Position numbers and translations under genes: made by a program | Shown here: positions 12,598 to 18,923 of the stretch, piece after piece | Layout: the number at the start of each line of letters is the position of its first letter | Numbering within the stretch: the first letter of the stretch is position 1 | The notes under the pieces: model-generated | The model's database searches: none | Told to the model about the DNA's origin: nothing | What the model saw: the letters and a program-made list of their open reading frames with translations, nothing else | Source of the DNA: Burkholderia sp. MS389 | GTDB taxonomy: Bacteria > Pseudomonadota > Gammaproteobacteria > Burkholderiales > Burkholderiaceae | Assembly: GCF_016899425.1 (NCBI RefSeq) | Contig: NZ_CP045995.1 | Span: 1,426,001-1,490,000, forward strand | DNA length: 64,000 nt | Reading direction: 5' to 3'

Positions 12598-12612
12598 GCA
12601 AGGAGCGTGCCG
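12598..12612 (-). promoter_or_regulatory. Sigma-54 type -24/-12 promoter of pqqABCDE
   Basis: Read on the minus strand the boxes are CGGCACG-CTCC-TTGC against the consensus TGGCACG-N4-TTGC; only the first base differs. The invariant GG and GC are present at correct spacing. Transcription would begin about 12586, leaving a leader of about 80 bases before pqqA. Confidence 0.7.
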
Positions 12613-12742
12613 AAGCCGCTTTTCGGCGGCCCGGCGGCGGTAGACGGCCATCATCCGGGCATCGCGGCGGAATCCTTACGAATAGCCGACACGATTCGCG
12701 CGAATGCGTTCCGCCACCCCGGCGGAACGCTGTCCGCGCGTG

Positions 12743-12800
12743 GTCACAGGTGTTGAATCGTTGAACACCGGTGTTGCAACTTGACACACCGGCTGTGACA
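12743..12800. promoter_or_regulatory. Two abutting 21-bp dyads upstream of pqqA (probable UAS)
   Basis: Sites at 12749-12769 and 12770-12790 both fit GGTGT-N11-ACACC and touch end to end. They are bracketed by GTCACA (12743-12748) and TGTGAC (12794-12799), a further inverted pair. They lie roughly 140-180 bases upstream of the -24 box, the usual range for enhancer sites of a sigma-54 activator, and immediately beside the activator gene. Confidence 0.65.
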
Positions 12801-12824
12801 GGTCGCGCGCAGCGCGACGGCGCG

Positions 12825-14873
12825 TCAGCTTTCGTCGGACGGCTGGCGCCCCGCGTCGGCGGCGGGCATCTTCCGGTAGATCGTGTTGCGCGAGACGCCG
12901 AGCGCGCGCGCCGCGGCGGACACGTTGCCGCCGTGACGGGCCAGCGCGGCGGCGATCGCGGACGCGGCGACGTCCTGCAGGCGCGCATCGACGGAAGGCA
13001 ACGCGTCCGCGGCGCCCGGCCCGGCCGCGGTGCTCGCCGCGGCGGGCGAATCGGGCGTGGCCGGCACGGCCTGCCCGGTCTGCACGGCATCGCCGCGCCG
13101 CAGGTCATCGAAGAAGTCGTCCGGCAGGTGCTCGCGCCGGATTTCGCCATCGTCGTCGACCATGGCCGCCGCCGTGCGCAGCAGGTTGCCGAGCTGGCGG
13201 AAGTTACCCGGCCACGTGCAGCGCACGAACAACTCCATGACGTCCGGCGCGACGGACAGCGGCGGCCCGCCCGGCCCCGCGAACGCCTCGCGTTGCAGCA
13301 TCTTCTGCACGACGACCGCGAGATCCGTGCGGTCGCGCAACGGCGGCAGGCGCACCACGAGGCCGTTCAGCCGGTAGTAGAGATCCTCGCGGAAACGGTT
13401 CTGCGCGATCATCTCGCGCAAGTCGCGGTGCGTCGCGCAGATGATCGCGATGTCCACGGCAATCGTCTTCGTCGACCCGAGCGGGTTCACGAGGCGCTCC
13501 TGCAGCACGCGCAGCAGCCGCACCTGCAGCGGATACGGCATGTCGCCGATCTCGTCGAGGAACAGCGTGCCGCCGTTCGCCTGCAGCAGCTTGCCGATCG
13601 CCCCCTTGCGGCGCGCGCCGGTAAATGCGCCCTCCTCGTAGCCGAACAGCTCGGACTCGATCAGCGTCTCCGGAATCGACGCGCAGTTGACCGCGACGAA
13701 CGGCGCGTCGCGCCGCGGCGAGTCGTTGTGGATCGCCTGCGCGAGCAGTTCCTTGCCGGTGCCGGTCTCGCCGGTGATCAGGATCGGGATGTCCTTGCCG
13801 ATCACCTTGCGCACCTTCGCGATCACGCACGCGACCTGCGCATCGCCGGTGTCGAGATAGTTGAGCCGCGACAGGCCGGCCGACGTGCCGGCCGCCGGCG
13901 CGGGCGCCGCGTTCGCGCGTGCGGCCGGCGCGCCCGCGTCGTGGACGTCCGTCGGCCGGCTGCCTTCGGCGAGCGTCGCGCGGCGGAAGTGCACGCGCGC
14001 GCAGACCACCGCACCGTTGCCGAGATTGAGCATCAGGTGCCGGTCGGTGCTCGCGCGCATGCGGTCGATCAGCTGCGCACTGGTGACGTCGAACAGCGAC
14101 GACAGCGTGTGCGCGCGCAGCGCCGAGAGCGGCATGCCGAGCTGGAACTGCGCGCTGCGATTGGCCGACAGGAAGCGCCCGTCGGCGGTGAACGCGACGA
14201 TCCCCTCCATCAGCGTGCCGAGGAACTCGGGGCGGCCATGAAACGACACCTGCAGCGTTTCCTGAAAGGTCGTCGTAAACAGGTGATTCTCGATCATCTG
14301 CACCGACATCTTCGCGAGCGCCATCGTATGCTGGTGATAGCTGCGGTGGTCGCCCGTCACGTCGAGCACGCCGATCGCGTCGCCGTACGGATCGAGGATC
14401 GGCACGCTCGAACAGGTCAGGAAGCGGTTCGCGGCCAGGAAGTGCTGGTCGCCGTGGACGACCATCGGGCACAGCTCTGCCAGCGCCGTGCCGATCGCGT
14501 TGGTGCCCTGCCGGCTCTCCGCCCAGTTCGCGCCCGGGCGCAGCGCGACCTTCTCCGCGCGGCGCAGGAAATCGTCGTCGCCGATCGAATGGAGGATCAG
14601 CCCTTCCGCATCGGTCAGCACGATCATGCTCTGCGTGTTGACGATCTGCTCGTGCAGCGTCTCCATCACCGGCATCGCGTGCACGCACAGCACCCGGCTC
14701 TGCTCGCGCTTGAGCACCAGCGCCGCGTTCGACAGCACGTCGTAGTCGGGTCGTGCCGATACCTGGAGGCCGAACGTCTCCGAGCGCTCGTGGGCCTTCT
14801 GGATCGACGGCGCGGGCCAGCCAGCGGGATGCGCGGCCCGTGACCCGGCCGCCTGCTCTACGTCATCGCGCAT
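12825..14873 (-). CDS. Sigma-54-dependent activator, AcoR type
   Basis: A 682-residue enhancer-binding protein. The N-terminal part (to about residue 300) looks like the GAF/PAS sensory region of AcoR-like regulators. The AAA+ domain has Walker A GETGTGKE, the sigma-54 contact loop GAFTGA intact, and Walker B GGTLFLDEIGDMP. The end holds a Fis-type HTH (ARHGGNVSAAARALGVSRNT). AcoR-type proteins respond to acetoin, alcohols or related molecules. GGAGGAGAC before the ATG at 14873 decides the start. Its 3' end abuts the paired dyads before pqqA, so it is the natural candidate to switch on the pqq operon, the receptor and the dehydrogenase. Confidence 0.92.
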   Translation of the reverse strand: MRDDVEQAAGSRAAHPAGWPAPSIQKAHERSETFGLQVSARPDYDVLSNAALVLKREQSRVLCVHAMPVMETLHEQIVNTQSMIVLTDAEGLILHSIGDDDFLRRAEKVALRPGANWAESRQGTNAIGTALAELCPMVVHGDQHFLAANRFLTCSSVPILDPYGDAIGVLDVTGDHRSYHQHTMALAKMSVQMIENHLFTTTFQETLQVSFHGRPEFLGTLMEGIVAFTADGRFLSANRSAQFQLGMPLSALRAHTLSSLFDVTSAQLIDRMRASTDRHLMLNLGNGAVVCARVHFRRATLAEGSRPTDVHDAGAPAARANAAPAPAAGTSAGLSRLNYLDTGDAQVACVIAKVRKVIGKDIPILITGETGTGKELLAQAIHNDSPRRDAPFVAVNCASIPETLIESELFGYEEGAFTGARRKGAIGKLLQANGGTLFLDEIGDMPYPLQVRLLRVLQERLVNPLGSTKTIAVDIAIICATHRDLREMIAQNRFREDLYYRLNGLVVRLPPLRDRTDLAVVVQKMLQREAFAGPGGPPLSVAPDVMELFVRCTWPGNFRQLGNLLRTAAAMVDDDGEIRREHLPDDFFDDLRRGDAVQTGQAVPATPDSPAAASTAAGPGAADALPSVDARLQDVAASAIAAALARHGGNVSAAARALGVSRNTIYRKMPAADAGRQPSDES

Positions 14874-15185
14874 TGTCTCCTCCGGGGGATCCTTCCGGTC
14901 AACTGCCGGACTCTTTGCCGTCATTGCAAGCAAGCATCGGGCCACGCGAGCGCCGCGCGATAAATTGAAAGGACGATGTAATGAATCATCCGGGCGCGGC
15001 CGGGCGTGTCGTGTCGCGTCGCGCGACGGGCAGGCCTTCGTGATACCGCGAATTCCCGACGCGTGACTACCCGTGCGAATCCGGATCCTCGCGGCTGGCG
15101 CGTTTCTGGCTTCATCGCAGAACCCATCCGGCCGCTGCCCGGCCGCGTGACGGTTGCCTTCCGATTCCGCCCGAACCCTATCGAC
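14874..15185. other. Divergent intergenic region, no gene seen
   Basis: This gap separates the sigma-54 activator (minus) from the hydrolase (plus). The AT-rich patch at about 14960-14990 is the likely place for promoters, but no clear -35/-10 pair was found. No sigma-54 boxes and no copy of the GGTGT-N11-ACACC dyad were seen here. Confidence 0.4.
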
Positions 15186-18675: not shown

Positions 18676-18769
18676 GCGCCGCGAGCGCAAGCGGTGCCCG
18701 CCGCGTCGCCCCTCGCTTTGCGAAACGCATGCGTTCGGCCGATGTCCCGCTGTTCTACGGACTGCGCCA

Positions 18770-18822
18770 CCTGTCATGTTTGGCAACACTTCCCGCGCGA
18801 CGGTGTACCTGAATGCAACACC
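18770..18822. promoter_or_regulatory. Dyads between the facing sigma-54 promoters (probable UAS)
   Basis: The site 18802-18822 fits GGTGT-N11-ACACC exactly, the same rule as the two sites before pqqA. A weaker copy, CCTGT-N11-ACACT, lies at 18770-18790, its start 32 bases away, about three helical turns. Both are about 90-140 bases from each of the two -24 boxes. Confidence 0.6.
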
Positions 18823-18872
18823 TGCGCCGACGCCACGGCGCGGGTCGTCGATCGGCCCATCGCAAGCGATAC

Positions 18873-18896
18873 GCCGGTGTGCCGCGCCACACCGGC
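18873..18896. repeat. 9-bp inverted repeat near the dehydrogenase promoter
   Basis: GCCGGTGTG (18873-18881) and CACACCGGC (18888-18896) form a perfect inverted repeat with a 6-base spacer, 12 bases upstream of the -24 box. It shares GGTGT/ACACC with the nearby dyads but the spacing is 8, not 11. It may be a variant site or an unrelated hairpin. Confidence 0.35.
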
Positions 18897-18908
18897 TTCC
18901 TGCCGCGA

Positions 18909-18923
18909 TGGCATGCGATTTGC
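18909..18923 (+). promoter_or_regulatory. Sigma-54 type promoter of the PQQ dehydrogenase
   Basis: TGGCATG-CGAT-TTGC matches TGGCACG-N4-TTGC with one change in the -24 box. Spacing is exact. Transcription would start about 18935, giving a leader of about 80 bases. Confidence 0.7.

Follow-up and report, generated by a model that had tools for sequence, protein, structure and literature searches.

A quinoprotein alcohol dehydrogenase of Azospirillum is reportedly controlled by sigma-54 together with a LuxR-type regulator (a study by Singh from 2017, going by its title), and the acetoin regulator AcoR is a sigma-54 activator. Both resemble the locus described here, which lies in a window of 64,000 nucleotides (the whole stretch of DNA that was analysed) from Burkholderia sp. 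MS389 (contig NZ_CP045995.1, positions 1,426,001 to 1,490,000). The window carries genes for the synthesis of pyrroloquinoline quinone (PQQ), a TonB-dependent receptor, a PQQ-dependent alcohol dehydrogenase and a sigma-54 activator, and copies of a palindromic element, GGTGT-N11-ACACC (the dyad), lie upstream of the sigma-54 boxes of the first three. The locus is akin to the Azospirillum system in that a quinoprotein alcohol dehydrogenase is predicted to depend on sigma-54, but the LuxR-type partner reported there differs from the GAF/AAA+ enhancer-binding protein found here. The likeness to AcoR lies in the regulator, with a similar ATPase and helix-turn-helix (HTH) and the same general architecture.

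For Ralstonia solanacearum, control of ExaC by an AcoR-like protein has been predicted (the pair Rsc3129/Rsc3128), and growth on ethanol there requires rpoN1 (PMC4676750). As here, a sigma-54 activator of this type is thus predicted to act on ExaC, but in the accessible parts of that article the prediction comes without a DNA site, pqq operon, PQQ dehydrogenase, receptor or acetyl-CoA synthetase gene (acs), unlike here. According to the available extracts, BmoR of Thauera butanivorans is likewise an alcohol-responsive sigma-54 activator bound upstream of a -24/-12 promoter, but it controls butane monooxygenase (PMC8784404, PMC8899819). The ped cluster of Pseudomonas putida resembles our locus in its PQQ alcohol dehydrogenases (pedE/pedH), of which one is linked to lanthanides, and differs in its lanthanide switch via PedS2/PedR2 and, as far as the consulted sections of the source go, in the lack of a LutH-type TonB receptor homolog in strain KT2440 (PMC12997753). 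The parts are familiar, and their common switch appears to be a new, testable prediction; neither the regulon nor the dyad site turned up in searches of an open-access library, which leaves out most subscription papers.

An earlier note on this DNA had proposed that the neighbouring activator reads the dyad and runs cofactor synthesis, receptor and dehydrogenase as one regulon. Four lines of evidence give good support to a single regulon: site conservation, the transfer of a matrix from one promoter to another, a genome-wide ranking and gene co-occurrence. Judged from the sequences, the regulon is real and conserved, and belongs to a well-known sigma-54 type. We consider it likely that the dyad serves as upstream activating sequence in a sigma-54 regulon devoted to periplasmic short-alcohol oxidation and that the neighbouring activator reads it. 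Sites, pairing, spacing, conservation, boxes and gene co-occurrence were observed directly. The core elements are the following (bits refer to the matrix described below, identities to the window sequence):

12749 to 12769, no strand: putative enhancer dyad 1 of the pqqA promoter (GGTGTTGAATCGTTGAACACC); exact match, 24.5 bits, identity 0.89 in 18 loci
12770 to 12790, no strand: putative enhancer dyad 2 of the pqqA promoter; exact match, 27.2 bits, identity 0.93, 21 bp (two helical turns) from dyad 1
18770 to 18790, no strand: degenerate putative enhancer dyad between receptor and dehydrogenase genes; 6.5 bits, half-site identity 0.87 in 18 loci, 32 bp from the exact dyad
18802 to 18822, no strand: exact putative enhancer dyad between receptor and dehydrogenase genes; exact match, 21.4 bits, identity 0.85
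12597 to 12612, minus strand: sigma-54 -24/-12 box of pqqABCDE, CGGCACGCTCCTTGCT; identity 1.00 in 18 loci
18660 to 18675, minus strand: sigma-54 box of the TonB receptor, TGGCACGGTTCTCGCA
18909 to 18924, plus strand: sigma-54 box of the dehydrogenase, TGGCATGCGATTTGCG; a box with up to three mismatches in 68 of 69 upstream regions
12825 to 14873, minus strand: sigma-54 activator (GAF, AAA+, Fis-type HTH), candidate reader of the dyad; PF00158 at E 9.7e-69, PF01590, PF02954
16257 to 18584, minus strand: TonB-dependent receptor; PF00593, PF07715
18999 to 20738, plus strand: PQQ-dependent alcohol dehydrogenase, PedH-like; TIGR03075 562.8 bits, cut-off 480.05

Exact copies of the dyad occur in the window only at 12749-12769, 12770-12790 and 18802-18822, just the three places that had been named (100 shuffles: mean 0.01, maximum 1). 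The weaker copy claimed at 18770-18790 reads CCTGTCATGTTTGGCAACACT and is conserved as strongly as the exact copy beside it (0.87 vs 0.85). The boxes before pqqA, receptor and dehydrogenase were also recovered in the orientations proposed, and the distance between dyad and box, previously put at about 90-180 bases, was measured as 98 to 169: from the dyad centre to the GG of the -24 element it is 148 and 169 for pqqA, 106 and 138 for the receptor, and 98 and 130 for the dehydrogenase. Since nine boxes with up to two mismatches to TGGCACG-N4-TTGCW occur in the window, four of them at unrelated places (6360, 14478, 15096 and 51613), boxes alone are not rare, and it is their combination with the dyads that matters.

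We compared this arrangement with related loci, taken as the best 80 of 553 confirmed relatives, mainly from Burkholderia, Paraburkholderia and Trinickia, which gave 81 regions downstream of the activator gene (pqqA present in 65) and 69 upstream of the dehydrogenase gene. Among 18 loci picked by hand, so that the figures measure conservation where the site exists, identity with the window was 0.85-0.93 in the half-site columns of the dyads and 1.00 in the box columns, as against 0.48-0.49 elsewhere. Dyads, including the weaker copy, and boxes thus stand out in the comparison of orthologous loci that the earlier note had called for, and none of the slid placements of dyads plus box matched the observed conservation (0/128 and 0/296). 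In the larger set a pqqA box with up to three mismatches was present in 60 of the 65 regions with a pattern-recognised pqqA (81 regions examined). At a threshold of at least 8 bits, the 63 regions with a box downstream of the activator (three without a recognised pqqA) held two matrix hits in 55 cases, one in 6 and none in 2, and the 68 with a box upstream of the dehydrogenase held two in 40, one in 26 and none in 2. The hits of a pair were 20-22 bp apart on the pqqA side (53/55) and 30-33 bp apart on the dehydrogenase side (38/40), that is, two or three helical turns.

The matrix is palindromic (consensus GGTGTTGCATCATGCAACACC) and was trained solely downstream of the activator, on 48 loci whose site has one mismatch or none, giving 31 distinct sites. 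Applied to the dehydrogenase promoters it scored 54 of 69 above the 1% null of shuffles and 66 above the 5% null, and 61 lay above the 99% point of a control set of 633 windows drawn at random from these loci, with 54 overlapping ones dropped. Column-permuted matrices passed a mean of 0.4 of these promoters, with a maximum of 13. The upstream regions of exaC, of which 30 were collected across the family, passed the 1% null in 18 cases and the 5% null in 21.

A scan of the whole genome (7.75 Mb, three contigs), also called for earlier, found the exact dyad at 6 places and the reversed control pattern at 0. Two of the six lie inside long reading frames and four at alcohol-oxidation promoters, three of these being the copies in the window; the fourth, C1:209958, is located on another contig, upstream of an exaC-type aldehyde dehydrogenase gene. 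Across 65 Burkholderia genomes 242 exact dyads compared with 47 for the reversed control. Allowing one mismatch in our genome yielded at least 98 places vs 55 in the control, which is too noisy on its own, and the genome ranking therefore began from sigma-54 boxes instead. As a separate observation, contig C88 of genome G001 holds two more exact matches, at 11344 and 11802, that are 458 bases apart and show a longer symmetry (GGTGTTTAACGGTTAAACACC and a near copy); this pair possibly represents operators of another regulator.

For the ranking we took all 91 strict boxes (GGCAYG-N4-TTGC) and scored the 380 bases upstream of each with the matrix, a procedure that can miss promoters whose box departs from this pattern, such as the receptor's own. 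The top four were pqqA (27.2 bits), the dehydrogenase (21.4), exaC (17.6) and the divergent neighbour of exaC (17.6), with a median of -1.0 over all boxes; pqqA represents the training side, the other three lie outside it. The exaC protein matched the solved ExaC chain 9koi at E 6.1e-243, the second best of 131 sequences, and is thus a close relative of ExaC. At its promoter the exact dyad at C1:209958 is accompanied, at a distance of 24 bp, by a dyad with one mismatch, and the box there is perfect, TGGCACGCATGTTGCA. The divergent gene, pyridoxamine-oxidase-like by eye, has these sites in common with exaC, the same layout as that of receptor and dehydrogenase in the window. Between the two boxes (C1:209860-210144, loci L001 and L094) two to three dyads are found.

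The acs gene of the cluster ranked 7th, with two unrelated boxes slightly above it (10.2 and 10.0 bits). Its elements are:

24507 to 24522, plus strand: sigma-54 box of the cluster's acs
24360 to 24380, no strand: degenerate acs dyad (ACTGCTCAGGACTGCAACACG); 9.8 bits, centre 138 bases from the -24 box
24381 to 24401, no strand: degenerate acs dyad, 21 bp from the other; 7.7 bits, centre 117 bases from the -24 box
24569 to 26551, plus strand: acs, acetyl-CoA synthetase, second copy in the genome, named from sequence; start codon TTG

Searching the window for the dyad pattern with up to three mismatches did not detect a dyad at acs; the degenerate pair was found by the matrix. A copy of acs with 99% identity lies at C1:2516001. 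Of 10 acs genes located in PQQ clusters (L227 and L015 seem to come from a single species), every one has a box near -60 to -65 and 8 have two hits 21-22 bp apart, and two (L025 and L037) reach 19.3 bits. The acs genes elsewhere, including the copy on contig C1 of G012 (L228), lack the dyad pair, though isolated hits or boxes at other positions occur in a few. This contrast suggests that the cluster acs is a copy drawn into the regulon.

With pqqA, dehydrogenase and exaC at the top of the ranking and acs 7th, the regulon probably leads from alcohol to acetyl-CoA and includes cofactor and receptor. It looks wider than the earlier note had it, which contained neither exaC nor the second acs; the acs box at 24507-24522, a box before the activator gene at 14929-14944 and the exaC site on the other contig, which lay outside the DNA available to the note, were absent from it.

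Several results concern the identity of the reader. The neighbouring protein has the architecture of a sigma-54 activator, with GAF domain, sigma-54 ATPase domain carrying GAFTGA, and Fis-type HTH all above cut-offs, and GAFTGA is present in 82 of 83 long activator matches. A full ortholog of the activator (at least 85% identity) was found in 36 of 65 Burkholderia genomes, all 36 of which have the dehydrogenase (G026 as a partial match), and of the 27 genomes without activator (searched at E 1e-100) one has the dehydrogenase, a draft assembly of about 1100 pieces with 82% completeness. Two genomes were set aside from this count, G014 with a 71% relative and G050 with a fragment, neither of which has the dehydrogenase at E 1e-200. 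The dyad was found on average 4.9 times in the 37 genomes with activator (G014 included) and 2.2 times in the 28 without (G050 included), kinship being uncorrected. In other genera 6 of 30 exaC loci have a relative of the activator no more than 1.5 kb from exaC (60-73% identity across the part present), in agreement with the AcoR-like/ExaC prediction for Ralstonia solanacearum (PMC4676750).

The earlier description of the protein as AcoR-type holds for its architecture and not for identity with the acetoin AcoR. We rejected the latter since the aco-linked place is filled by a separate gene, C1:2061864 (41% identity), which we read as AcoR and which stands beside aco-like genes (operon named by eye); its promoter region contains no matrix dyad site. 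Among possible readers of the dyad the neighbouring activator, the one named in the earlier note, is the strongest candidate, given its domains, its relatives adjacent to exaC and a genome, G016, that has strong sites but no match to a paralog described below.

On these grounds we propose that RNA polymerase with sigma-54 would wait at the -24/-12 boxes of pqqA, receptor, dehydrogenase, exaC and the second acs, while the neighbouring GAF/AAA+/Fis-HTH activator would bind the dyad pairs, two or three helical turns apart and centred 70-170 bp upstream in this genome. Its N-terminal domain would sense an alcohol or aldehyde (the substrate being, for example, ethanol), whereupon the activator would loop to the polymerase and open the promoters, so that cofactor synthesis, dehydrogenase and likely electron carriers, aldehyde dehydrogenase, acetyl-CoA synthetase and receptor would rise jointly. 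Binding by this activator, its inducer and the induction itself are steps that we infer from sequence. The dyad would then be a concrete sequence-level code whereby a soil bacterium makes a cofactor, its enzyme, a receptor and the downstream enzymes together. The regulon also suggests how the PQQ genes in the insect-symbiosis region of related bacteria may be controlled, a region that also contains a sigma-54-dependent Fis-family regulator (PMC9088363).

Some observations weigh against this proposal. The 1% null was failed by 15 of the 69 dehydrogenase regions and by 12 of the 30 exaC upstream regions, the acs sites are degenerate, and the orthologous loci are kin, so that their counts are not independent events. 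No word starting with 'pqq' occurs in the main text of PMC5979394 or PMC5491218, which deal with sigma-54 or NtrC in Burkholderiaceae. Finally, a dyad with at most one mismatch and a box stand before exaC in 13 of the 27 activator-free genomes, and the genome encodes a paralog of the activator (C2:1277519, 53% identity) whose HTH is nearly identical (GGNVSAAARALGVSRNTIYRKM vs GGNVSAAARELGLARNTVYRYL), so that something else can read the sequence.

The last point leads to the idea that the dyads are read mainly by the paralog, or by both activators, and that the regulon has two inputs, with the neighbour neither its only nor its main controller. It gains from the near identity of the HTH regions, from the persistence of the exaC site just described, and from the distribution of the paralog, a match to which is present in 64 of the 65 Burkholderia genomes, the sole genome without one (G016, at E 1e-120) being also without an exaC-type site. 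G016, however, keeps the activator, the dehydrogenase and strong PQQ-cluster dyads (28.1, 23.0 and 16.0 bits at pqqA and in the receptor/dehydrogenase region) without a paralog match, and across the genus the dehydrogenase tracks the activator, which sits in the cluster, and not the paralog. We regard reading mainly by the paralog or by both as possible but rather unlikely; at exaC the paralog probably does read the same sequence. Our own reading of the comparison is that two activators would use one common enhancer sequence, the neighbour for the PQQ cluster and the paralog for exaC. More tentatively, and with the odds against it, two paralogous activators with a near-identical recognition helix may share one enhancer code, the core one holding the aldehyde dehydrogenase and the accessory one having come with the PQQ cluster and joined cofactor synthesis, a probably lanthanide-using dehydrogenase, a new receptor and a duplicated acs to that code. 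If true, the regulon was assembled by reuse of an existing enhancer language.

We consider it improbable that the dyads are bound by a different protein, a repressor or a LuxR-type regulator, with the sigma-54 activator binding elsewhere. Palindromes of this size suit many regulators, and the LuxR-type protein said to act with sigma-54 in Azospirillum sets a precedent, but dyads that come in pairs, 70-170 bp ahead of -24 boxes, point to enhancer binding rather than repression, the top-scoring matches across the genome go with sigma-54 boxes, and relatives of the activator lie beside exaC. That the pqqA-side dyads are merely the terminator of the activator gene and the dyad at 18.8 kb a coincidence is hardly credible: although they lie 34 and 55 bases beyond its stop codon and could form a hairpin, no T run follows them, the same paired motif occurs before exaC and in the DNA between divergent genes, where no gene ends, while conservation and the matrix test on a second promoter oppose coincidence.

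The likely reader, the neighbouring activator, has a sigma-54-like box before its own gene:

14929 to 14944, minus strand: sigma-54-like box before the activator, TGGCCCGATGCTTGCT; a box with up to two mismatches within 250 bases upstream in 67 of 80 activator genes

In these genes the box is typically TGGC[C/G]CR-N4-TTGC, with C or G for the usual A, and lies mostly near -70; in most cases no dyad was found within 250 bases. The activator gene may thus be under sigma-54 control via another route.

The best solved relative of the TonB receptor is the PQQ receptor PqqU/YncD. A 2025 study gives an aromatic residue at position 99, R304 and R365 as the signature of PqqU and notes that in four genomes of Burkholderiales it is syntenic with PQQ genes (PMC12124388). 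Our receptor aligns Leu, Val and Asp at these positions, in an alignment that is well anchored in the plug and less sure in the barrel (26% overall identity). It scored 115.8 bits on the curated PqqU family NF041535 against a cut-off of 1200, and a search of the genome with Escherichia coli PqqU gave 11 matches, the receptor not among them. With residue signature, curated score and reverse search all failing, we rejected PqqU as the identity of the receptor. Its structure model is poor, the mean predicted local distance difference test (pLDDT) value being 52.6. On the more tentative reading given above it would be a new receptor, its cargo perhaps being a metal chelate or a complex of PQQ with a metal. 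Tying this orphan to PQQ and alcohol metabolism makes the cargo testable.

The TIGR03075 score of the dehydrogenase passes the curated threshold for PQQ methanol/ethanol dehydrogenases. The closest solved chains are 6zcw and 6zcv, annotated as 'quinoprotein ethanol dehydrogenase', which we take to be PedH, as we take 1flg to be ExaA. All 69 dehydrogenase sequences carry WDYD, where 6zcw has WDFD and 1flg WDFS. They thus possess, as does PedH, the second Asp two residues past the catalytic Asp, presumably the mark of lanthanide use, and the enzyme is probably lanthanide-using by this residue pattern. Downstream of it lies an unusual set of likely electron carriers, a cytochrome c/binding-protein-like fusion and a high-potential iron-sulfur protein (20819-22442), and on the other side of the activator are the PQQ genes:

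20819 to 22021, plus strand: C-terminal cytochrome c domain (PF13442) with a binding-protein-like N-terminal part assigned by eye
22128 to 22442, plus strand: high-potential iron-sulfur protein; PF01355
12429 to 12503, minus strand: pqqA, precursor peptide of 24 amino acids, named from sequence
11445 to 12368, minus strand: pqqB; TIGR02108 390.8 bits, cut-off 245
10723 to 11442, minus strand: pqqC, start approximate; reading frame, named from sequence
10445 to 10723, minus strand: pqqD; PF05402 51.7 bits
9304 to 10641, minus strand: pqqE, frame as listed; TIGR02109 523.2 bits, cut-off 381.35

PqqB, PqqD and PqqE by family scores and PqqA by sequence identify a PQQ biosynthesis operon. The family match of PqqE begins at residue 74, so that its true start is probably further in.

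A sigma-70 factor gene with regions 1.1 to 4 (22399-24318) lies between the dehydrogenase operon and acs. Elsewhere in this genome, 17 of the 91 strict boxes fall inside 77 kb of contig C3 (858624-935507), and matches to sigma-54 activators lie in or just before this box-rich stretch, at C3:850120, 914849 and 916410.

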